Part shown: in pieces, positions 5,718-49,987 of the stretch
How positions within the stretch are numbered: the first letter of the stretch is position 1
How the letters are laid out: every line of letters begins with the position of its first letter
DNA from: Methylocystis iwaonis
GTDB lineage: Bacteria > Pseudomonadota > Alphaproteobacteria > Rhizobiales > Beijerinckiaceae
Direction of reading: 5' to 3'
Assembly (NCBI RefSeq): GCF_027925385.1
Contig: NZ_AP027142.1
Span: 310,001-374,000 of the forward strand
Length of the DNA stretch: 64,000 nt
Position numbers and translations under genes: made by a program
Notes under the pieces: model-generated
What the model saw: the letters and a program-made list of their open reading frames with translations, nothing else
Told to the model about the DNA's origin: nothing
Database searches by the model: none

Positions 5718-7679
5718 ATGGCGAATAACAAGGTCATCAGCGCCGACGAGGCGATTGCGCTCATCCGCGACAATGATGTCGTGACCACCACGGGCTTCGT
5801 TCAAAGCTGCATCCCGGAGGCGCTTCACGCCGCGCTGGAGAAGCGTTTCGTCGAGTCCCAGCATCCGCGCGACCTGACCTTGATCATGACCGCCGGAGCC
5901 GGCGACTCCAAGGGCCTCGGCACCGGCCGCTTCCATCACGAGGGCCTGCTCAAGCGCGTCATCGCCGCCAATTTCGGCCGCATGCCCAAGGTCGCCCAGG
6001 CCGCCCAGGAAAATAAGATTCTGGGCTACAACCTGCCCCAGGGCGTCATCTCGCAGCTCTACCGCGCCTGCGCCGCCGGCCAGCCCGGCCTGTTCTCGAA
6101 AGTCGGCCTTTATACTTATGTCGATCCGCGCTTTGGCGGCGGCAAGGTGAACGACGTCACCACCGAAGACATCGTCAAATATCACAACATCCAGGGCGAG
6201 GAGTGGCTCTTCTACATCTCGACCAAGATCGACGTCGCCTTCATCCGCGGCACCTCGGCGGATCCTTCCGGCAATATCAGCATGGAGAAGGAAGCGCTCG
6301 TCCTCGACAATCTCGCCCAGGCCATGGCCGCGCATAACAATGGCGGCCTTGTCATCGCGCAGGTCGAGCGCATCGTCGAGCAGGGCTCGATCAAGCCCAA
6401 GGACGTGCATGTGCCAGGCATTCTGGTCTCGGCCGTCGTCGTCGCCGATCAGCCGGAAATGCACCGGATGAATTACGGTGTCATGTACAATGCGGCGCTC
6501 GCCGGCGAAGTCCGCGTGCCGGTCGAGAAGCTTTCGAAAATGCCGCTCGACGAGCGCAAGGTGATTGCCCGCCGCGCCTCCTTCGAGCTGCCGCCGAATG
6601 GCGTCGTCAACCTCGGCGTCGGCGCGCCGGAAGGCATCGCCGCCGTCGCCAATGAAGAAAAGCTCACGCCCTATATCACGCTGACGACGGAAGCCGGCGC
6701 GATCGGCGGCGTGCTCGCCTCGGGTTCGAGCTTCGGCGCGGCGACCAACGCCGACAGCATCATCCAGCAGAACCAGCAGTTCGACTTCTATGATGGCGGC
6801 GGTCTCGACATGACCTGCCTCGGCATGGCCGAATGCGACCTGCAGGGCAACGTCAACACCTCGAAGTTCGGTGGGCGCCTCAACGGCTGCGGCGGCTTCA
6901 TCAACATCAGCCAGAACGCGCGTCTCGTCGTCTTCGCCGGCACCTTCACCAATGGCGGGCTGCGCGTCGAGATCGCCGACGGCAAGGTCAATATCCTTCA
7001 GGAAGGCCGCAACAAGAAGTTCCTGAATTCCGTCGAGCAGACGACCTTCTCGGGCAAATTCGCGCAAAAGCGCAAGCAGCCGGTCTATTACGTCACGGAG
7101 CGCTGCGTCTTCCAGCTCAAGGAGAATGGTCTGGAGCTGGTCGAGGTCGCGCCCGGCATCGACATCGACAAGCACATTCTGCCCTTCATGGACTTCAAGC
7201 CGATCATCAATGATCCGCAGCTCATGGACCGTCGCATCTTCATCGACGAGCCCATGGGGCTGATCAACGATCTGCTCAACCTCAATCTCGATCAGCGCAT
7301 CAGCTACGACGCCGCGCGCAATATTCTCTTCCTCAATCTCGAGGGCTGGAATGCGCGCACCAAGAAGGACGTCGACGAAATGCGCCAGGCGCTCGTCGCG
7401 GCCTGCCAGAAGGTCGGCAAGCGCGTGAATTCCGTGGTCAACCACGATGGCGCGCGGATCGCCGAGGCGCTCTACGACGATTACGCCGAGATGATCGAAT
7501 ATCTGAGCCAGCATTATTATCTGACGACGACGCGCTATGCGACGAGCGCCTTCGCCCGCATGAAGATGAAGGAAGCCATGGCCAAGCGTGGCCTGCAGCC
7601 CCACGTCTTCGAGCGCCGCGAGGCGGCCGAGACCTTCCTCGAAGTGGTCGCGGCCGAAGAGGAAAAGGCGCCTGTATAA
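5718..7679 (+). CDS. Fused acyl-CoA:acetate/3-ketoacid CoA transferase with C-terminal extra domain
   Basis: A 653-residue single-chain family I CoA transferase resembling YdiF/propionate CoA-transferase: the alpha-like half runs to about residue 270 and the beta-like half to about 525. The catalytic glutamate is expected in TTEAGAIGG, and GGGLDMTCLGMAE and SKFGGRLNGCGGFI match the beta half. Such enzymes move CoA between short acyl groups and acetate or acetoacetate. The final 120 or so residues (after RRIFIDEP, with YDAARNILFLNLEGW) go beyond the usual family length and look like a STAS/SpoIIAA-type alpha-beta domain. It stands alone, with a perfect inverted repeat just after the stop. A role in acetate or polyhydroxybutyrate turnover is inferred from the EMC context. 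Confidence 0.88.
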   Translation: MANNKVISADEAIALIRDNDVVTTTGFVQSCIPEALHAALEKRFVESQHPRDLTLIMTAGAGDSKGLGTGRFHHEGLLKRVIAANFGRMPKVAQAAQENKILGYNLPQGVISQLYRACAAGQPGLFSKVGLYTYVDPRFGGGKVNDVTTEDIVKYHNIQGEEWLFYISTKIDVAFIRGTSADPSGNISMEKEALVLDNLAQAMAAHNNGGLVIAQVERIVEQGSIKPKDVHVPGILVSAVVVADQPEMHRMNYGVMYNAALAGEVRVPVEKLSKMPLDERKVIARRASFELPPNGVVNLGVGAPEGIAAVANEEKLTPYITLTTEAGAIGGVLASGSSFGAATNADSIIQQNQQFDFYDGGGLDMTCLGMAECDLQGNVNTSKFGGRLNGCGGFINISQNARLVVFAGTFTNGGLRVEIADGKVNILQEGRNKKFLNSVEQTTFSGKFAQKRKQPVYYVTERCVFQLKENGLELVEVAPGIDIDKHILPFMDFKPIINDPQLMDRRIFIDEPMGLINDLLNLNLDQRISYDAARNILFLNLEGWNARTKKDVDEMRQALVAACQKVGKRVNSVVNHDGARIAEALYDDYAEMIEYLSQHYYLTTTRYATSAFARMKMKEAMAKRGLQPHVFERREAAETFLEVVAAEEEKAPV

Positions 7680-7686
7680 GAGATAG

Positions 7687-7715
7687 GCCACGCGACTTTC
7701 ATATTGTCGCGTGGC
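7687..7715. terminator. Perfect 10-bp hairpin after the CoA transferase
   Basis: GCCACGCGAC at 7687-7696 pairs perfectly with 7706-7715 around a 9-base AT-rich loop. It begins seven bases after the transferase stop and could end its transcript, although no T-run follows. It contains the GTG at 7711, which makes that codon an unlikely start for the next gene. Confidence 0.55.
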
Positions 7716-7740
7716 TACCTATCTGCCGGGGATTTTGCAG

Positions 7741-8598
7741 ATGTATTGGCAAACCGCAACCAGCCATCTCACCAAAGACTTTTTGAGCGCCGTTCTTTTT
7801 ATTGCTTCCTTCTGGAAGGGCGATGATATACTGTCAGATCAGGGAAAAAAAGACCTATATTCATATTTTAGAGCGGAAAATCTGTCGAATGCGGACCGTG
7901 AGACCTTAGATTTTATGAGATTATATTTCAATGACGAACAATCAATTGCGTATTTTGCATTGAATATATTAAGGTTTACCTTTATATCGCTGCTGATCGG
8001 ATTGTCTATTTATGTATTTTCGATACCAGGGTTTGCCTTACAACTATTAACCGACAGTGACTCTTTATACCGATTCTCTGAACAAGTTGCTAGTGATGGC
8101 TTTTTAAAAGCTTATCTCATAAATTTCATTGGTGTTAAGTTATATTTTTCCAGAATCAGGGATTTTCCAACATCTCCTTGGGCTAACCTCATTGTCGATA
8201 TTTCGACTAAGATATTTTTATTCTTTGGCCTCACAGCGATCAGCTATCTACTTCACGCGCATTTTCTAGGTTCGTTTAAAGGAGACTATTTGCTTGCCCT
8301 GCGCGCGATCGGGCCGACGATATGGAATGCGCTCCTTCTTAAGAATCTAACTTCAGCTTATCTAGTTTGCGTCGCGGTCGGCTCCTTGCCGTTGTTCTTG
8401 ACTGCGTTCAGCTATTACATGCGTTCGAATGCGTCCTTCTCCCGGCTCGTCAGAGCAATATTTCTCTGGCTTCCTTTTGAAGGGAGACCGATACGGGCCT
8501 TATCGGTGATCAGCGGCGCGTTCTACGCTGTGTTTTTTGCGATTTCCTCAATATTTATCCTCGGTCTAGGCAATCTGATGGAAGCTTCGTTCAAATAA
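7741..8598 (+). CDS. Unrecognised AT-rich multi-pass membrane protein
   Basis: A 285-residue protein that I cannot place in a family. An N-terminal soluble stretch of about 75 residues (YSYFRAENLSNADRETLDF) is followed by about four hydrophobic segments: ILRFTFISLLIGLSIYVF, ISTKIFLFFGLTAISYLL, AYLVCVAVGSLPLFLTAF and AFYAVFFAISSIFILGL. ATG 7741 is preferred, with GGGGA eight bases upstream; the GTG at 7711 lies in a hairpin. The base composition differs sharply from its neighbours: the 60 bases from 7861 hold only 24 G or C, with many A/T-ending codons. That suggests recent horizontal gain. The 3' end is closer to host composition. Confidence 0.75.
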   Translation: MYWQTATSHLTKDFLSAVLFIASFWKGDDILSDQGKKDLYSYFRAENLSNADRETLDFMRLYFNDEQSIAYFALNILRFTFISLLIGLSIYVFSIPGFALQLLTDSDSLYRFSEQVASDGFLKAYLINFIGVKLYFSRIRDFPTSPWANLIVDISTKIFLFFGLTAISYLLHAHFLGSFKGDYLLALRAIGPTIWNALLLKNLTSAYLVCVAVGSLPLFLTAFSYYMRSNASFSRLVRAIFLWLPFEGRPIRALSVISGAFYAVFFAISSIFILGLGNLMEASFK

Positions 8599-9092
8599 GC
8601 AAAGGCCCCGTCGCCTTGTGCGAACGGGGCCCAATGCTTCTCTCGGAAGCTGCTGGTATGGTCCAGTTTCGGGAAGGACGCCCGCTGCTTGGCCTTCGCG
8701 GCGAGCTGTCCTCAAATGCTAAGGAATTTTTCGGAACGGGACATGTCAGGCAGCGCTGAGCCTGGCTTCCCGCTTTGACCGGAACCAAACGCCGGTCAAA
8801 TGATCTGACCCGGTGGCGTCATGCTCCTCCGCAACTAAAGTTGCTCGACCGCTCCGCCGGTGACAGGGAGTCCGCCGGCGTCTCCTGTATCGCTGCCGCA
8901 TCGAGGTCCCGCCCGAGCGATCCCGCCTCTATTTGCCGAAGCGGTTGCGATGTAAGGGAAATGTTGCTCCCGTTTCCTGTTTCCGTCAAGCGACAAGTTG
9001 AAGCAGGCGATCAGCGATCCTACCACTTTTGCGCCTTGCACGATGCACGATCAACGCATATAGATATCTTTATATCTCGCGTTAGAGGCCGC
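8599..9092. other. 494-base leader region before the methionine operon
   Basis: It starts with a hairpin (CCCCGT at 8606 pairing with ACGGGG near 8628) and holds several short GC-rich inverted repeats. The frame of the downstream regulator stays open across much of it but has no family resemblance. No known riboswitch could be matched with confidence. A candidate operator sits at its 3' end. Confidence 0.5.
9063..9076. promoter_or_regulatory. Candidate operator of the ArsR-methyltransferase regulator
   Basis: GATATCTTTATATC is a perfect inverted repeat (GATAT, four-base spacer, ATATC) centred 25 bases before the ATG of an ArsR-type regulator gene. It is an AT-rich island in a GC-rich leader and is where an autoregulatory ArsR dimer would be expected to bind. 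Binding is inferred. Confidence 0.6.
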
Positions 9093-10103
9093 ATGACCGC
9101 CCCCAATTCCCTCAGGCTGGACCCCGCGCTCGCGGCGCTCAACGCCGCCGCCGAGGAGACTCGGCTGCGGCTGCTCGCGCTGCTTTCGCAGTCCGAGCTT
9201 ACCGTCAGCGAGGTCGTCACCATTCTTGGCCAGTCGCAGCCGCGCGTTTCCCGCCATCTGAAGCTTCTGGTAGAGGCAGGCCTGGTCGAGCGCCGGCGTG
9301 AAGGCGCCTGGGCATTCTTCCGACTGTCGCCCTCGGGACAGGCGGGGGCTATGGCGCGCGACATCGCCGCCTGGCTCGACCCCAATGATGCGGTTCTCGC
9401 CGAGGATCAGGCGCGCCTCGAAGACGTGCGCCAGGCCCGCGCCGAAAACGCCGCCCGCTATTTCGCCGCCCACGCCGCCGAATGGGACGATATCCGCTCG
9501 CTGCATGTGCCCGAGACGCGGGTCGAGGACGCCATGCGCGAGGCCGTGGGCGATGCGCCGGTGCGCACCCTGCTCGATCTCGGCGCCGGCGCCGGGCGCA
9601 TGCTGGAGCTCTTCGCCCCGCTCGCGGAACGCGCCATCGGCGTCGATCTTTCGACGGCTATGCTTGCCGTCGCGCGCGGACGCATGGAGGAGACGGGGCT
9701 GCGCAACGTCCAATTGCGCCAGGGCGACATTTACGCTTTGCCGATCGAGCGCAACTCCGTCGATCTCGCGATCATGCATCAGGTGCTGCACTATCTCGAT
9801 GATCCGCCGCGCGCGCTGCGCGAGGCGGCGCGCGTATTGGCGCCCGGCGGGCGGCTGCTCGTCGTCGACTTCGCGCCCCATCAGGAAGAGGCGCTGCGCG
9901 ACAAGCACGCCCATCGCCGCCTCGGCTTTTCCGAAACCGAGATCGCCGACCTTCTCGCCCAGGCGGGCTTGGAGACAGTGAAGCACCGCGCGCTTTCGCC
10001 TGCGCCCGGCGAAGGCGCAAAGCTCACTGTTTCACTGTGGCTCGCGCGCGATCCGCGCATGTTCGCCGATCCGATTCCTGCTTCTTCCTATGAGACCGCC
10101 TGA
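9093..10103 (+). CDS. ArsR-type regulator fused to a SAM-dependent methyltransferase domain
   Basis: A 336-residue two-domain protein. Residues 1-90 are an ArsR winged helix (EETRLRLLALLSQSELTVSE then QPRVSRHLKLLVEAGLVERR) without an obvious metal-binding Cys pair. Residues 140-300 are a class I methyltransferase: LLDLGAGAGRMLELF is the SAM-binding glycine loop, VDLSTAMLAVAR motif II, and HYLDDPPRALREAARVLAPG the post-loop region. In alphaproteobacteria this fusion commonly heads met operons, where it probably senses SAM or S-adenosylhomocysteine. Its TGA overlaps the metF ATG, so the operon regulator-metF-metH is coupled. The ATG at 9093 is chosen because the ArsR domain begins there. Whether the methyltransferase fold is catalytic or a sensor is unknown. 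Confidence 0.88.
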   Translation: MTAPNSLRLDPALAALNAAAEETRLRLLALLSQSELTVSEVVTILGQSQPRVSRHLKLLVEAGLVERRREGAWAFFRLSPSGQAGAMARDIAAWLDPNDAVLAEDQARLEDVRQARAENAARYFAAHAAEWDDIRSLHVPETRVEDAMREAVGDAPVRTLLDLGAGAGRMLELFAPLAERAIGVDLSTAMLAVARGRMEETGLRNVQLRQGDIYALPIERNSVDLAIMHQVLHYLDDPPRALREAARVLAPGGRLLVVDFAPHQEEALRDKHAHRRLGFSETEIADLLAQAGLETVKHRALSPAPGEGAKLTVSLWLARDPRMFADPIPASSYETA

Positions 10104-11002
10104 TGTTCAACGCGCTGCATCCGACCGCCTCCGGCACGCGGTTCAATATCTCTTACGAATTCTTTCCGCCCAAGACGGCGGAGATGGAGACGCAGCTCTG
10201 GGCGTCGGTGAAGCGCCTCGAAGCGTTGCGGCCGCATTTCGTTTCCGTCACCTATGGCGCGGGCGGCTCGACGCGCGAGCGCACCCATGCGATCGTCGCG
10301 CGCATCGCCCGCGAGACCATCATGAAGCCGGCGGCGCATCTCACCTGCGTGTCGTCCTCAAAAGAAGAGATCGACGAGATTCTTCGCGCCTATTGGGAGG
10401 CTGGCGTGCGCCACATCGTGGCGTTGCGCGGCGATCCGCCGACAGGCGTGGGCACGGTGTTTGAACCCAATCCCAAGGGCTACGCCAGCTCCTCCGATCT
10501 CGTGAACGGCATTCGCCGCCTGCATGATTTCGAGATTTCGGTGTCGACCTATCCCGAGGGCCATCCGGAGAGCCGTTCCATCGAACAGGATCTCGACGCG
10601 TTGCAAGCGAAGATCGACGCCGGCGCGACGCGCGCTATCACGCAATTCTTCTTCGACAACGACGTCTACTTCCGCTTTCTCGACAAGGCGCGCGCGCGCG
10701 GCATAACGATCCCGATCGTGCCGGGCATCATGCCGATCCGCAACTTCAAGCAGGTTGCCAACTTCGCGGCGAAGGCGGGCGCAAGCGTGCCGCGCTGGGT
10801 CGCCGAGCGTTTCGACGGCCTCGACGAAGATCAAGAGACCCGTGCGCTCGTCGCCGCGACGACCGCCGTCGAGCAGGTGATGGGCCTCGCCCGCGCCGGC
10901 GTCGAGGAGTTTCATTTCTACACCAACAACCGCGCCGATATGGTCTTCGCCATCTGCCACCTGCTCGGCGTTCGTCCCCTTCGTGAGAAAGCAGACGCAT
11001 GA
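10103..11002 (+). CDS. metF: 5,10-methylenetetrahydrofolate reductase
   Basis: A 299-residue FAD-dependent TIM-barrel reductase that makes 5-methyltetrahydrofolate for methionine synthase. Typical MetF motifs are [13 protein letters not shown] near the N-terminus, [34 protein letters not shown] and [14 protein letters not shown]. Length matches bacterial MetF. The ATG overlaps the previous stop (TGATG) and the TGA overlaps the metH start (ATGA), giving a tightly coupled three-gene operon. Its product is the direct methyl donor for the next enzyme. Regulation is most likely by the ArsR-methyltransferase encoded first in the operon. Confidence 0.96.
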
Positions 11003-28415: not shown

Positions 28416-28518
28416 GTCATTCCCGACGCCCGCACTGCGGGCGATCGGGAATCCAGGGCAAAACCAGCGCTCTGTGGCTCTGGATTCCCAGTCGGGCTTT
28501 CAGCCCGCCGGGAATGAC
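28416..28518. repeat. Palindromic repeat R2, copy b
   Basis: GTCATTCCCGACG and GATCGGGAATCCAG on one side, CTGGATTCCCAGTCGGGC and CCGGGAATGAC on the other. It is in the opposite orientation to copies a and c and lies between the mcd stop and its terminator. Confidence 0.9.
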
Positions 28519-28539
28519 AAAGACCCAAAGGAGAGGGCG

Positions 28540-30337: not shown

Positions 30338-30841
30338 CTAATGTCCGGTCAGCATCGCGATTCTCGCCGCGCCCAATTTCAAAAAGAGCCTCAAGGGAAA
30401 TCCCCGATAGCTCGGCGCGTCGGATGGCAATTCCATTTCCGACTTTCGGCGGCGCGTTTGGGTTCTCATTTCGATCGGCGGCGGGTTGCCGTCATAACGG
30501 AGCCGATAGGTCGAGACCCAGAACCCCGGGTCGAATTTCACGAACATGCCGGAGTTGCAGCAGGAAGCGACCATCCTTCGCGTCGGCGAATTGGGTTTCA
30601 GCCGATGCTCTTCGAGAAGATCGGCGCCGGAGACGCAACGGAATCGATCATCGCGGTAGGTCAAATAAGGCGTGCCGCCGTCGGGGTCGCGGACCGGCGC
30701 GGCGTTGGGGAGCGCTTCGATCCGCCGGCCGCCTTCCTGGCAATCCGCGCAATAGCAGACCGCGCTCAGGATCGGCTCGCCGACGGCTTCGCAACGGACG
30801 CGCCCGCAGGCGCAGGAGGATATTCTGGTGGTGGGTCTCAT
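30338..30841 (-). CDS. Gfa/CENP-V-fold zinc protein
   Basis: A 167-residue protein with the cysteine pattern of glutathione-dependent formaldehyde-activating (Gfa)-like proteins: Cys10/12/17 (CACGRVRC), Cys29/31/34 (CYCADC) and Cys94/95 (SCCNSG). These bind one or two zinc ions. Some members bind glutathione and formaldehyde, but most are of unknown function. The start at 30841 begins MRPTTR; upstream there is an R2 repeat, whose flank provides the GGAAATG leader sequence. The R-rich stretch RTQTRRRKSEME is unusual. A formaldehyde role would suit a methylotroph but is not demonstrated by sequence. Confidence 0.85.
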   Translation of the reverse strand: MRPTTRISSCACGRVRCEAVGEPILSAVCYCADCQEGGRRIEALPNAAPVRDPDGGTPYLTYRDDRFRCVSGADLLEEHRLKPNSPTRRMVASCCNSGMFVKFDPGFWVSTYRLRYDGNPPPIEMRTQTRRRKSEMELPSDAPSYRGFPLRLFLKLGAARIAMLTGH

Positions 30842-30875
30842 ATCATTTCCGTTTGAATAGCTCGCATGGGGACTT

Positions 30876-30979
30876 GTCATTCCCGGCGGGCTGAACGCCC
30901 GACCGGGAATCCAGAGCCCAAAAAGCGCTGGTTTTGCTCTGGATTCCCGATCGCTCGCTGCGCGAGCGTCGGGAATGAC
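30876..30979. repeat. Palindromic repeat R2, copy c
   Basis: The closest relative of copy a: GTCATTCCCGGCGGGCTGAA, GGGAATCCAGAGCC, GCTCTGGATTCCCGATCGCT and GCGTCGGGAATGAC, with the same outer flanks (TTGAATAGCTCGCATGGGG on the left, ATCAAACGGATCT on the right). It lies between two genes transcribed leftward. Confidence 0.92.
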
Positions 30980-31012
30980 GCCGAACTAATCAAACGGATC
31001 TAGAGCCCCCGA

Positions 31013-33206: not shown

Positions 33207-34445
33207 TCACATCTCGCCGAGAACCTCCGCGACCGTGAAGATATCCTTGTCGCCGCGACCGCTCAGATTCATCACCATCAGATGGTCCTGCGGCTTTTGT
33301 GGCGCCAGCTCGAGCACTTTCGCGATGGCGTGCGAGGGCTCCAGCGCCGGGATGATGCCCTCCAGTTTCGAGCAGATCTGGAAGGCGGCGAGCGCCTCCT
33401 TATCCGTGGCGTTGAGATATGTCACGCGGCCGGTCTGATGCAGCCAGCTATGCTCCGGGCCGACGCCGGGATAATCCAGGCCCGCCGAGATTGAGTGGCC
33501 TTCGAGAATCTGCCCGTCGTCGTCCATGAGCAGATAAGTGCGGTTGCCGTGCAGCACGCCCGGCCTGCCGCCGGCGATCGACGCCGCATGGCCGTTGGGC
33601 ACAGAGACGCCATGCCCGGCCGCCTCGACGCCGTAAATCTCGACGTCGCGATCGTCGAGGAAGGGGTGGAACAGGCCGATGGCGTTGGAGCCGCCGCCGA
33701 TGCAGGCGACGAGCGAATCGGGCAAGCGCCCTTCCGCCTCCTGCATTTGCGCGCGCGTCTCATTGCCGATGATCGACTGGAAATCGCGCACCATGCCCGG
33801 ATAGGGATGCGGACCGGCGGCCGTGCCGATGCAATAGAAAGTGTTGGAGACGTTGGTCACCCAATCGCGCAACGCCTCATTCATCGCGTCCTTCAGCGTG
33901 CGTGCGCCGGATTGCACCGGATTCACCGTGGCGCCCAGCATTTTCATGCGGAAGACGTTCGGCTTTTGCCGCTCGACGTCGACGGCGCCCATGTAGACGA
34001 CGCATTCGAGCCCGAAGCGCGCGCAGGCCGTAGCCGTGGCGACGCCATGCTGGCCGGCGCCCGTCTCGGCGATGATGCGCTTCTTGCCCATGCGCTTGGC
34101 GAGCAGAATCTGCCCCAGCACATTGTTGATCTTATGGGAGCCTGTGTGGTTCAGCTCTTCGCGCTTGAAGTAAATCTTCGCGCCTTTTCCCTCCTCCGCA
34201 TTCTGGCGGACATGCTCGGTCAGGCGTTCGGCGAAATAGAGCGGCGAGGGGCGCCCGACATAATGCGTGTGAAGATGCGCGAGCTCCGCGTGGAAGGCGG
34301 GATCGTTCCTGGCTTCGTCATAGGCGCGCTCCAGATCGAGCACGAGCGGCATCAGCGTCTCGGCGACGAAGCGGCCGCCGAAAATGCCAAAACGGCCATT
34401 CTCGTCCGGGCCGGCGCGGAAGGAATTGGGAAGCGGCTTGGTCAC
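33207..34445 (-). CDS. trpB: Tryptophan synthase beta subunit
   Basis: A 412-residue PLP enzyme that condenses indole with serine. Clear motifs are [17 protein letters not shown] at the start, the PLP-lysine loop [26 protein letters not shown], and the phosphate loop [16 protein letters not shown] chose GTG at 34445 because GAGGA lies eight bases upstream and the protein then begins like other TrpB; the longer frame to 34550 has no family support. trpF lies upstream in the same direction but is separated by an AT-rich foreign-looking gene. trpA is not found downstream: the repeat and convergent tetR follow. Confidence 0.96.
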
Positions 34446-34559
34446 GGAGCGGTTCCTCTTTGCGGTCGATCCTTGCAGGTCGGAATTCTGCCTCGTCTTA
34501 AACAATTGCTGTTGTCCGAGGAAGTCCCGGCTTACTGTGGCGGTTTTCACGGCAGGCCA

Positions 34560-35489
34560 TCATTTATCGTCCAGTCGGAACCTAATTTTGTGTTCTCGGG
34601 TGATAATTATCCCAATAAGGAGAGGGGAAAGAACGATTGCTGCGATCAATATATTTACCCTGAGAATACCTAGTGTTAATAAAACTAAAAACGCAGCTTC
34701 GGCAGTTATCAAAATATTTAGCCACGTCGATGCGGACATCCACCAAGATGTTTGCCGATATGCTTTTAAGCGAGATTGGTGGAATCTAAATCTAAATAGT
34801 GCATGAGAATACACTAACAAGATAGATGATGTCAGCACCAAGAGAGTTGCTGCCATAAGTTCTTTAGATAGGTAAAGTATTTTCGATAGGCCAAGGGGAT
34901 TTTCGCTCTGGTATATGTAGCTGATTCCGGCAACTGATAGCGCGAATGTGGCGGTGCTCCAATTAGGAAGCTGCCATATCAAATTGTCGAAGTGTCTATA
35001 TTCTTCATTATATTTTTGGATCTTAACGTCTAAAATCGGTTCTCTGACTCGGATTTCGATTAACTCTTCGATAGAAGTGCCACGTATCTTTTCGTCGAAT
35101 ATTTTCGTTAGATCGTCCGTGTTCCGATCTGGGTGTGAGCACTTGCCGTGTTTGACAGTATGGATGGTCGCTCCTGGCGAAAGATATACATTATGAATTA
35201 TACCAGGACTTGTGGTGAATATCTGATCATCCGCATATTTTGATAGTATGATGCGATCGTCTCGCAGTTCAGCGTAAACTATCCACCCATTTTGGACGAT
35301 ATATGTCTCTAATACCTCCTTATGATAGTGACTTTCTTGCCAGCCACCTTCCGTCGACTCAGTTCGAATGTACGCAGTGCCGTCTAACTTTCTCAGCCGA
35401 AAGCGCAATTCGCCGTTTTTCATCCGTTCGTGGCAAGTGGCGATGCCGTGCTCATTTGCTGCAATTTCAGACTCGATGCACTCAGACAT
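34560..35489 (-). CDS. Membrane-anchored cupin protein, AT-rich, inserted between trpF and trpB
   Basis: A 309-residue protein with a clear cupin: Gly48-x5-His54-x-His56-x4-Glu61-x6-Gly68 (GWQESHYHKEVLETYIVQNG region) and a second motif SPGIIHN with His99, so a metal site is complete. After a linker, about four hydrophobic segments follow (TFALSVAGISYIYQ, AATLLVLTSSILLVYSHALF, LNILITAEAAFLVLLTLG, ILIAAIVLSPLLIGIII), ending in a basic tail. I do not know a named family with this fusion. Base composition is AT-rich with codons unlike the neighbours, suggesting horizontal gain into the trp locus. It is in the same direction as trpF and trpB. Function is unknown; small-molecule sensing or binding at the membrane is a guess. 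Confidence 0.82.
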   Translation of the reverse strand: MSECIESEIAANEHGIATCHERMKNGELRFRLRKLDGTAYIRTESTEGGWQESHYHKEVLETYIVQNGWIVYAELRDDRIILSKYADDQIFTTSPGIIHNVYLSPGATIHTVKHGKCSHPDRNTDDLTKIFDEKIRGTSIEELIEIRVREPILDVKIQKYNEEYRHFDNLIWQLPNWSTATFALSVAGISYIYQSENPLGLSKILYLSKELMAATLLVLTSSILLVYSHALFRFRFHQSRLKAYRQTSWWMSASTWLNILITAEAAFLVLLTLGILRVNILIAAIVLSPLLIGIIITREHKIRFRLDDK

Positions 35490-35560
35490 GATTCGCCTCG
35501 CAAAAATACCTCGATTGCCTGGCGCAAAATTCAGGAAATGCGCTCAAGTAAAGCGATCCC

Positions 35561-36217
35561 TTAGCGGAGAAGACCATCAAAAACCCGGACCTCCAGCAAA
35601 AATTTTGCAATCTTCCCCGCGTCCTTTACGCCTCTCTCCCGCTCGACGCCGGATGACACATCTACCGCCGGCGCATTGGTGTGGCGCAGGGCTTCCCTTA
35701 CATTTTCTGCGTCCAACCCCCCGGAGAGCATCCAGTTTGCGGCGCTTATGTTGCGCAGCAAATCCCAGTCGAAGGCGACCCCTGCGCCGCCGGGAACCGC
35801 AGCGCCCGGCGCCGGCTTGGCGTCGAACAACAGAATATCCGCGACGTCCTCGTAAGATTGCGCGGCCGCAACATCCTCGGCGGTCGCGACGCCGATCGCC
35901 TTGATCACCGGAAGGCCGAAGCAGGCCTTCACCGCGGCGACGCGCGCCGGGGTTTCACGCCCATGCAATTGCAGAAGGTCGGGCTCGAGGTTGTCGATGA
36001 CTGCTTGGAGCGCGTCGTCCGTGGCGTCGACCGTCAGCGCTACTTTGCGAATGCGCCCCGAGCCCAGCGCCCCCAGTGTCCGCGCCGTTTCGAGATCGAT
36101 ATGGCGCGGGCTTTTCTCGAAGAAGACAAAGCCCGCCATGTCAGCGCCGGCGGAGACGGCCGCGAGCAGCGTCTCGGGGGATGAGAGGCCGCAGATTTTG
36201 ACGAGCGTATCGGACAA
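35561..36217 (-). CDS. trpF: Phosphoribosylanthranilate isomerase
   Basis: A 218-residue TIM-barrel isomerase of tryptophan synthesis. Typical motifs are VKICGLSSPETL with the catalytic Cys, GFVFFEKSPRHI, LLQLHGRETP, VIKAIGVAT, LLFDAKP with the catalytic Asp, and WMLSGGLDAENV followed by VDVSSGVE. Length is normal. In most relatives trpF and trpB are adjacent or overlapping; here they are 1.1 kb apart, with the AT-rich cupin gene between. Transcription toward trpB would have to pass through that gene. Confidence 0.96.
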   Translation of the reverse strand: MSDTLVKICGLSSPETLLAAVSAGADMAGFVFFEKSPRHIDLETARTLGALGSGRIRKVALTVDATDDALQAVIDNLEPDLLQLHGRETPARVAAVKACFGLPVIKAIGVATAEDVAAAQSYEDVADILLFDAKPAPGAAVPGGAGVAFDWDLLRNISAANWMLSGGLDAENVREALRHTNAPAVDVSSGVERERGVKDAGKIAKFLLEVRVFDGLLR

Positions 36218-49040: not shown

Positions 49041-49682
49041 TTAAACCGGCTCATATCCAGCGGCGGCGAAGAAATTTGCGCATTCAGCGGGGGAGAACTC
49101 CTTCAGCAATGCGCCGATCCTGTTCCATAGGGCGTCGACGGTCCGCTCCGCGGCTTTGCGGAGCAGAGCTTTGAGTTTGGAGAAGGCCTTCTCGATCGGA
49201 TTGAAATCGGGACTGTAGGGCGGAAGATAGAGCAGCGTCGCGCCGGCCGCCTCGATGGCCTTGCGCACGCCGGCGCCCTTGTGGCTCCCCAGATTGTCCA
49301 TCACGACAATGTCGCCCGGCGAGAGCGTCGGAACGAGAACCTGATCGACATAAGCCTGGAACCATTGACCATTGATCGGGCCGTCGAGAACCATCGGCGC
49401 CGTCATTCCAGTCAGGCGCAGGCCGGCGACGAATGTCGTCGTCTTCCAATGCCCATGCGGAACGCTGGCGCGCAGCCGCTCGCCTTTCGGCGCGCGCCCG
49501 TTCTTGCGCGCCATATTGGTCGTGGTCCAGGTCTCGTCGATGAAGACGAGCTTTTCGGGATCGAGATCGAGCTGGTTGTCGAACCAGGTTTCGCGCCGCT
49601 CCTTCACATCCCGCCGGTCCTGCTCGCTCGCATGGGCGGTCTTTTTTTGTAGGTTAGACCGCAGCGGTCGAGAAAGCCCCAC
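49041..49682 (-). CDS. IS630 transposase, DDE catalytic part (orfB frame)
   Basis: The catalytic half of the transposase. The acidic triad is visible: [11 protein letters not shown] (first Asp), [14 protein letters not shown] (second Asp), and [20 protein letters not shown] (final Glu), the IS630/Tc1-mariner arrangement. Upstream it overlaps the helix-turn-helix frame by 79 bases. It has no own ribosome site and is expected to be made only as a fusion with the first frame after a -1 shift at 49642-49648. All catalytic residues are present, so it should be functional. Confidence 0.92.
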
Positions 49683-49987
49683 AGCGTCGCTCGGCTTGCC
49701 TTGATCCCGCGTTCGGCGAGGAGCCGTTCCAGCAGTTCGCTGATGGTCAGGTCCGGCGTCGCCTCGATCAGCGCCAGCAGGAAATCGCGGTGCGGGTCGA
49801 GCTTGCAGCGTTTCGGCTGTCCCTGCTTGCGTGCGCCGCGCTCGCCGCTCTGGCGCGCGCGGCGAACCCAGACGATCGCGGTCGCATCACCGACCCCGAA
49901 ACGCGCCGCCGCCTGACGCGCCGAAAGCCCCTTCAACGCGACGTCGATCACTCGGTCGCGCAAATCCTGGCTGTAGGCTCGAGCCAT
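49604..49987 (-). CDS. IS630 transposase, N-terminal DNA-binding part (orfA frame)
   Basis: A 127-residue frame with helix-turn-helix motifs: [40 protein letters not shown] and [13 protein letters not shown] are typical of IS630-family N-termini. After YKK the frame enters A AAA AAA G (minus strand, 49648 down to 49642); slipping back one base continues into the catalytic frame as [13 protein letters not shown]. The unshifted product ends soon after (RASRTGGM) and might act as an inhibitor, as in other split transposases. Confidence 0.9.

Follow-up and report, generated by a model that had tools for sequence, protein, structure and literature searches.

The window (the whole stretch of 64,000 nt of Methylocystis iwaonis DNA that was analysed) contains a gene that constitutes a recent single-gene insertion between trpF and trpB and that encodes a cupin metal site joined to four predicted membrane helices. 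The protein's family is rare, lacks a name and is strictly conserved, with a sporadic, laterally acquired distribution. Judged from sequence and predicted structure, the protein may be a membrane switch that a small molecule triggers, possibly as a protection from viruses. Feature coordinates are collected in Table 1.

Table 1. Features of the inserted gene, its product and its flanks, in window coordinates
Feature	Position	Strand	Basis
Cupin and four-helix membrane protein, 309 aa, ATG start	34560..35489	-	ORF call, homologues, AlphaFold2
Metallo-cupin domain, residues about 16-117	35139..35444	-	AlphaFold2 strands 16-114, cupin fold matches, conservation
Four-helix membrane module, residues 160-309	34563..35012	-	AlphaFold2, full length and alone; module also found alone or with another cupin
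Signature YxxxYRHFDxLIWQxPxW, residues 160-177, start of TM1 (predicted cytosolic edge)	34959..35012	-	Alignments, conservation
Signature RFRxHQ, residues 233-238, end of TM2 (predicted cytosolic edge)	34776..34793	-	Alignments, conservation
trpF (PRA isomerase), upstream neighbour	35561..36217	-	PF00697 match
trpB, downstream neighbour	33207..34550	-	PF00291 match
1141 nt without homology to the matching G006 site	34469..35609		Comparison with G006

Insertion at the trpF-trpB junction

The cupin-membrane gene begins 71 nt past trpF, stops 9 nt ahead of the trpB-containing ORF and runs in the same direction as both; the plus-strand reading of 34560-35489 is riddled with stops. The sequence-only reading had proposed that an AT-rich gene of foreign composition separates two genes that usually adjoin, and comparison across the genus bears this out. 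We located trpF in 36 of 39 genus genomes and compared 30 loci (our own and 29 from relatives). By BLAST ends, trpB lies 54-235 nt from trpF in 26 of the 29 relatives' loci; two show no trpB within the compared stretch, and one (L053, genome G012) has 1266 nt between the two genes. The gene is absent from the junctions of the relatives examined, and these empty sites rule out a long-standing neighbour of trpF and trpB. The family profile matches two of the 39 genus genomes, the window genome and G016, where the match is a 156-aa frame comprising the cupin part only.

Genome G006, from the same species as the window genome, has no family-profile match and an empty trpF-trpB site. Homology to it stops at 35610 and restarts at 34468, G006 carrying between these points about 210 nt rich in GC palindromes; the spacers of the four relatives inspected (L035, L036, L039 and L046) are likewise filled with GC-rich palindromic repeats, REP-like by eye. 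Next to the insert, the first three 250-nt blocks towards trpF are 0.82, 0.88 and 0.91 identical to G006 and those beyond them 0.84-1.00 (most at or above 0.90); towards trpB, 1.2 kb shows an identity of 0.95-0.99. The lowered identity on the trpF side fits entry of the gene by homologous recombination through trpF. A search for mobile-element ends around the insert returned only short, chance-like repeats, with no clear terminal repeats. BLAST aligns the trpB ORF of the window to its relatives only from residue 27-37 on (17 in L053), so its first part probably came from the insert, and the true trpB start is probably the GTG near 34445. At the G012 junction, an ORF of 359 aa runs on the opposite strand (L069 5333-6412); it is Fic-like by eye, and its DNA encodes HPFSDGNGR, which we take to be the Fic signature. 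With two such inserts the trpF-trpB junction seems to take insertions and is a possible insertion hotspot.

In 500-base windows, GC content dips to 0.41-0.44 over the gene versus 0.61-0.66 in the flanks. The gene itself has a GC of 0.426 and a GC3 of 0.435, against a mean GC3 of 0.795 (sd 0.069) across the 32 other window genes of at least 200 aa called with a simple gene caller, and a codon-adaptation-like index of 0.31 against a mean of 0.68 for the same genes. The lowest GC3 in that set (0.46; codon index 0.34) belongs to a second AT-rich gene, 7711-8598 on the plus strand, which encodes 295 aa with several hydrophobic stretches by eye; it is the sole gene of the set to resemble the cupin-membrane gene and was probably also acquired. 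Elsewhere the window holds dispersed repeats of about 100-140 nt at 28416-28519 and 30837-30980, 84-86% alike to another G006 site, and two adjacent minus-strand ORFs at 49041-49987 that look by eye like a two-frame IS630-type transposase. By eye, the surroundings of the cupin-membrane gene consist of housekeeping genes, with neither a defence gene nor a cyclase, NTase or TIR gene next to it.

Cupin domain and membrane module

A family search over 3001 candidates yielded 241 homologues at E ≤ 1e-3; together with purifying selection between two Balneolaceae copies (L010 vs L011, dN 0.019, dS 0.110), this rules out a chance ORF. Identity to the window protein is 35-47% in a 38-row alignment. We scored conservation at 31 positions in 120 of the 241 homologues, window protein included. 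Fourteen positions are identical in all 120 (R29, R31, Y40, T43, W50, H54, H56, E61, K113, H114, D168, I171, W172 and R235), and D36, H99, H110, Y164, H166, Q238, W177 and S252 are kept in 119 or 118. The complete cupin site read from the sequence (G48, H54, H56, E61, G68 and H99) is present as described, its remaining positions being retained in 119 (H99), 115 (G68) and 98 (G48) of the 120. Cupins of the family that occur unfused keep R29, Y40, W50, H54, H56, E61, H99, H110 and K113 in ten of ten cases, R31 in nine, R42 in seven and H114 in six. At L005 (9977-10936) the homologue is broken across two ORFs, by a frameshift or an assembly error.

AlphaFold2 predicts for the full-length protein (mean pLDDT 91.3) a cupin barrel followed by four long helices (162-194, 209-239, 253-275 and 280-303), in agreement with the roughly four membrane helices anticipated from the sequence; folded alone, the membrane module reaches a pLDDT of 91.9 and a pTM of 0.86. 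In structure searches the cupin half matches, among others, quercetinase, oxalate decarboxylase, phosphoglucose/phosphomannose isomerase and KdgF. No match to a known fold was accepted for the membrane half, its hits (STAT, 14-3-3, syntaxin, CorA and designed bundles) being taken as generic helix packing. Loop 2 averages 5.3 lysines and arginines and the tail 4.3, versus 0.8 and 0.4 for loops 1 and 3, a distribution that follows the positive-inside rule and therefore places the cupin half, by prediction, on the cytosolic side.

No named family accounts for this protein, as the sequence-only reading had surmised, and the profile libraries gave no match to a well-characterised one. Neither Pfam nor the families of PADLOC-DB 2.0.0 match the window protein at E ≤ 10, and nothing significant comes from NCBIfam (one weak match, flhB, 0.79) or PHROGs (cysteine dioxygenase, 0.096, over the cupin; phrog_29214, 0.46). 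Sequence matches to solved structures were weak and were judged to be chance. The parts of the literature that our searches reached contain no membrane cupin of a similar kind, and the combination of cupin and membrane module was found in none of the profile libraries or literature so covered.

The membrane domain also occurs by itself. At least 101 proteins carry it, among them stand-alone forms (many of about 165-175 aa) and fusions to a second cupin type (PF07883, PF00190), and the membrane signature stays conserved in the proteins that consist of this domain alone. Conservation in the absence of a cupin argues that the domain has a function of its own (pore, oligomer or chemistry) and is more than a tether. 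Loci L021 and L019 encode cupin and membrane domain in adjacent separate genes, and at L020 a divergent membrane gene precedes the cupin gene; hhalign links this divergent form (L012, L014, L020) to the main membrane domain (98%, E 9e-14 and 2e-14). We built a tree of 106 membrane domains, with 46 of 136 rows bearing the first cupin type (a random draw plus the window protein) and all 44 stand-alone, 14 second-cupin and two unassigned rows. The 14 second-cupin fusions fall in a 37-row clade that is otherwise stand-alone (support 100/98), one row of the first cupin type (P0178, on a long branch) groups among stand-alone forms, and the window protein itself also has a long branch. The three architecture labels require eight changes on the tree versus a shuffled mean of 43.6, and the two cupin types are themselves related (hhalign 90%, E 1.9e-6, 78 columns). 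From the tree and the alignments, cupins and membrane domain appear to have been joined more than once, which argues that the two halves work together; some stand-alone forms may instead have lost their cupins, or include truncated or split genes.

Distribution and neighbourhood of relatives

Counts in wider sets of genomes include our own genome and are lower bounds, since only the best candidates per genome were scored. The family profile matches at least one of 199 family genomes (our own), at least three of 385 class genomes (our own, G522 and G450) and at least one of 398 phylum genomes (our own). The G450 match (L065) lies within a long membrane protein that resembles an MBOAT transferase by eye, and was judged false. 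The membrane profile alone matches at least one of the 398 phylum genomes and at least three of the 385 class genomes (our own, G522 and, weakly, G359 at 8.1e-4). A phage or plasmid gene is disfavoured: the phage sequence search gave no records, the plasmid search two records covering the cupin half only (none with the membrane half as query) and the viral contig search a single contig.

To describe genomic context we gathered 30 loci outside the window (29 from genomes, one viral) and, in 20 of them, scanned 145 genes within 4 kb, one of which is L020's own membrane gene; the scan left out L011 (a near copy of L010), nine cupin-only loci and genes shorter than 100 aa or longer than 2600 nt. 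At 1e-8, PADLOC matched 78 families among the neighbours, of which the best 25 were considered. Recognisable defence genes occur in at least four of the 20 loci. At L006, a TIR_2 protein lies 90 bp upstream (Pfam 2.9e-7; PADLOC TIR-TM 2e-64 over its first 185 residues); L020 has HEC-01A (8.9e-156), HEC-01B (1.6e-79) and Vsr (7.8e-20); NERD+UvrD and NACHT proteins (3.9e-170 and 3e-9) occur at L027; and at L030 an Mrr-like nuclease with a TIR-like part lies 110 bp downstream (1.6e-11; 9.7e-13). L006 is the one case among the ten loci with the window architecture (L002-L010 and L031), the others being the divergent form (L020), a gene for the membrane domain alone (L027) and a second-cupin fusion (L030). 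No defence gene was recognised by eye among the listed neighbours of the remaining 16 loci or of the G522 locus (L067). The count excludes matches to PDC-S14 (1.3e-72), mad2 (five members), DpdF and PsyrT (perhaps RecQ, by eye), as well as a mad8 match at L029 (3.7e-7) and a 780-aa neighbour at L021. In the latter (7583-9922), upstream of the cupin and membrane gene pair, a stretch of about 110 residues is matched by the models for PbeA (7e-13) and type IV restriction (3.8e-10). A small control took in 109 genes lying beyond 4.5 kb in 16 of the 20 loci (L019, L024, L028 and L030 contributed none) and gave five PADLOC families at 1e-8 with one member each: three of RtcR type, one subtilase and one 2OG protein. 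The portions of the literature searched for TIR-TM held nothing relevant. The neighbour evidence is suggestive of the defence or stress module that the sequence-only reading had raised, without being proof of it.

Apart from the near-copies L010 and L011, an all-versus-all comparison of neighbours revealed common synteny in three Bradyrhizobium genomes only, other neighbour families common to several loci being scattered. Around 8000-10450 of the three Bradyrhizobium loci (L015, L017 and L026) there are, by eye, phosphoheptose isomerase-like genes, with an HAD-type ORF in two. Together with L022, these loci carry unfused cupins near phosphoheptose isomerase-like, epimerase and glycosyltransferase-like genes, again by eye.

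Candidate functions and known systems

The reading we place first, tentatively and short of calling it probable, is that of a membrane effector under the control of a cytosolic cupin sensor, probably as defence or stress cargo. The cupin would use its metal ion and the invariant Arg, Lys and His residues to bind a small metabolite, probably an anion, and binding would switch the membrane module, where a polar cluster (H166, D168, R235, H237, Q238 and S252) at the predicted cytosolic face would gate a pore or a membrane-perturbing oligomer; the benefit spreading the gene would be defence or a stress response, most likely a phage-triggered membrane shutdown. This reading draws on the near-invariance of the metal site and polar residues, mostly kept in the ten unfused cupins too, on the membrane signature of the proteins without a cupin, on the positive-inside charge pattern, on the recurring pairing of cupin and membrane parts (as fusions, as adjacent genes at L019, L020 and L021, and with a second cupin type), on sporadic distribution and single-gene insertion, and on the defence genes near four of 20 loci. 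Against it, the window gene has no defence neighbour and its architecture has one in ten loci, the defence-neighbour control is small, and no fold match was found for the membrane module.

The near-invariant polar residues fit an enzyme just as well, and the main rival, which we regard as possible but somewhat doubtful, is a membrane-tethered cupin isomerase, lyase or dioxygenase acting on a sugar-phosphate, nucleotide-sugar or lipid-linked substrate, with helices that hold the enzyme or its substrate at the membrane. A complete metal site plus R29, R31, Y40, K113 and H114 in 120 of 120 homologues would suit catalysis, as would the enzymes among the fold neighbours of the cupin half and the sugar- or heptose-type genes near unfused relatives, which also count against a gated effector. 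However, that synteny is restricted to the three Bradyrhizobium genomes, H114 is missing from four of the ten unfused cupins, a membrane signature conserved without a cupin implies more than an anchor, and the sporadic lateral distribution is unlike that of a housekeeping pathway gene.

A homeostasis device, in which transport by the four-helix module is under the control of a cupin sensing a metal or small anion, with no defence role, would also account for the metal site and for the polar cluster at the predicted cytosolic helix face; we consider it improbable, as no transport or metal genes recur among the listed neighbours by eye and a CorA-like match (0.006) appears in only one of 38 members. 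Least likely, and quite improbable, is passive cargo, a recombination-borne gene useless to its host and being lost: absence from the same-species genome and foreign codon use agree with it, but the frame is intact, the family's near-invariant residues are retained and the Balneolaceae copies are under purifying selection.

A bolder form of the gated-effector proposal, which we hold to be unlikely as a whole, would make the metal cupin the receptor of a membrane immune effector, the first such family, with a phage-induced metabolite (previously unrecognised, probably phosphorylated or oxidised) opening a new four-helix pore whose module became joined to cupins on two or more occasions. The family lacks annotation, both its halves bear near-invariant residues that look catalytic or ligand-binding, and its membrane module is reusable and named by no profile library used here. 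If the cupin gates that module, the receptor domains of bacterial membrane effectors would come to include cupins, and the way would be open to a new signalling metabolite; even if the protein is an enzyme, it offers a clean target, with one gene, a well-predicted structure and obvious point mutants.

Among the closest known systems is the cupin superfamily, which the window protein matches through the predicted double-stranded beta-helix barrel, the HxH...E...H ligand set read from the sequence (H54, H56, E61 and H99) and structural matches such as KdgF and archaeal phosphoglucose/phosphomannose isomerase. The window protein departs from it by its fusion to four membrane helices and by a near-invariant set of its own (R29, R31, Y40, W50, K113 and H114). 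Of 38 family members, 22 match Cupin_2 (PF07883) at E ≤ 1 (best 6e-4), whereas the window protein, with no match at E ≤ 10, falls below its gathering cut-off.

The octameric membrane protein family 8xMP (PF24838) is similar in comprising small multi-helix proteins beside TIR or STING genes, and looks like a defence membrane effector; the parts of the literature searched for it held nothing relevant. Its members at L074 (1486-1908) and L075 (1477-1875) lie beside a ThsB_TIR and a prokaryotic STING protein, respectively, and that at L070 (1474-1923) beside an ORF that is TIR-like by eye. Two relatives match 8xMP weakly (L012 at 0.016, 15.5 bits; L020 at 0.0037, 17.5 bits; gathering cut-off 30 bits), but the window protein itself does not, and membership was not upheld by hhalign (probability 0.5-2.2%), which is weak evidence given the shallow 8xMP alignment of seven sequences. 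A PADLOC search with the 38 members carrying the membrane module returned one match, the CorA-like one.

The membrane effectors of Pycsar (Pycsar TM), CBASS and Thoeris combine a cytosolic ligand-binding domain with a few membrane helices and spread by horizontal transfer. The putative sensor of the window protein differs in being a metal cupin and not a cNMP-binding, SAVED, STING or macro domain; Pfam finds no cNMP-binding domain in it, and one in 38 relatives matches at 0.014. Cupins and ligand-controlled membrane effectors are each already known; their combination and the membrane module are, as far as the profile libraries and literature covered here extend, new.
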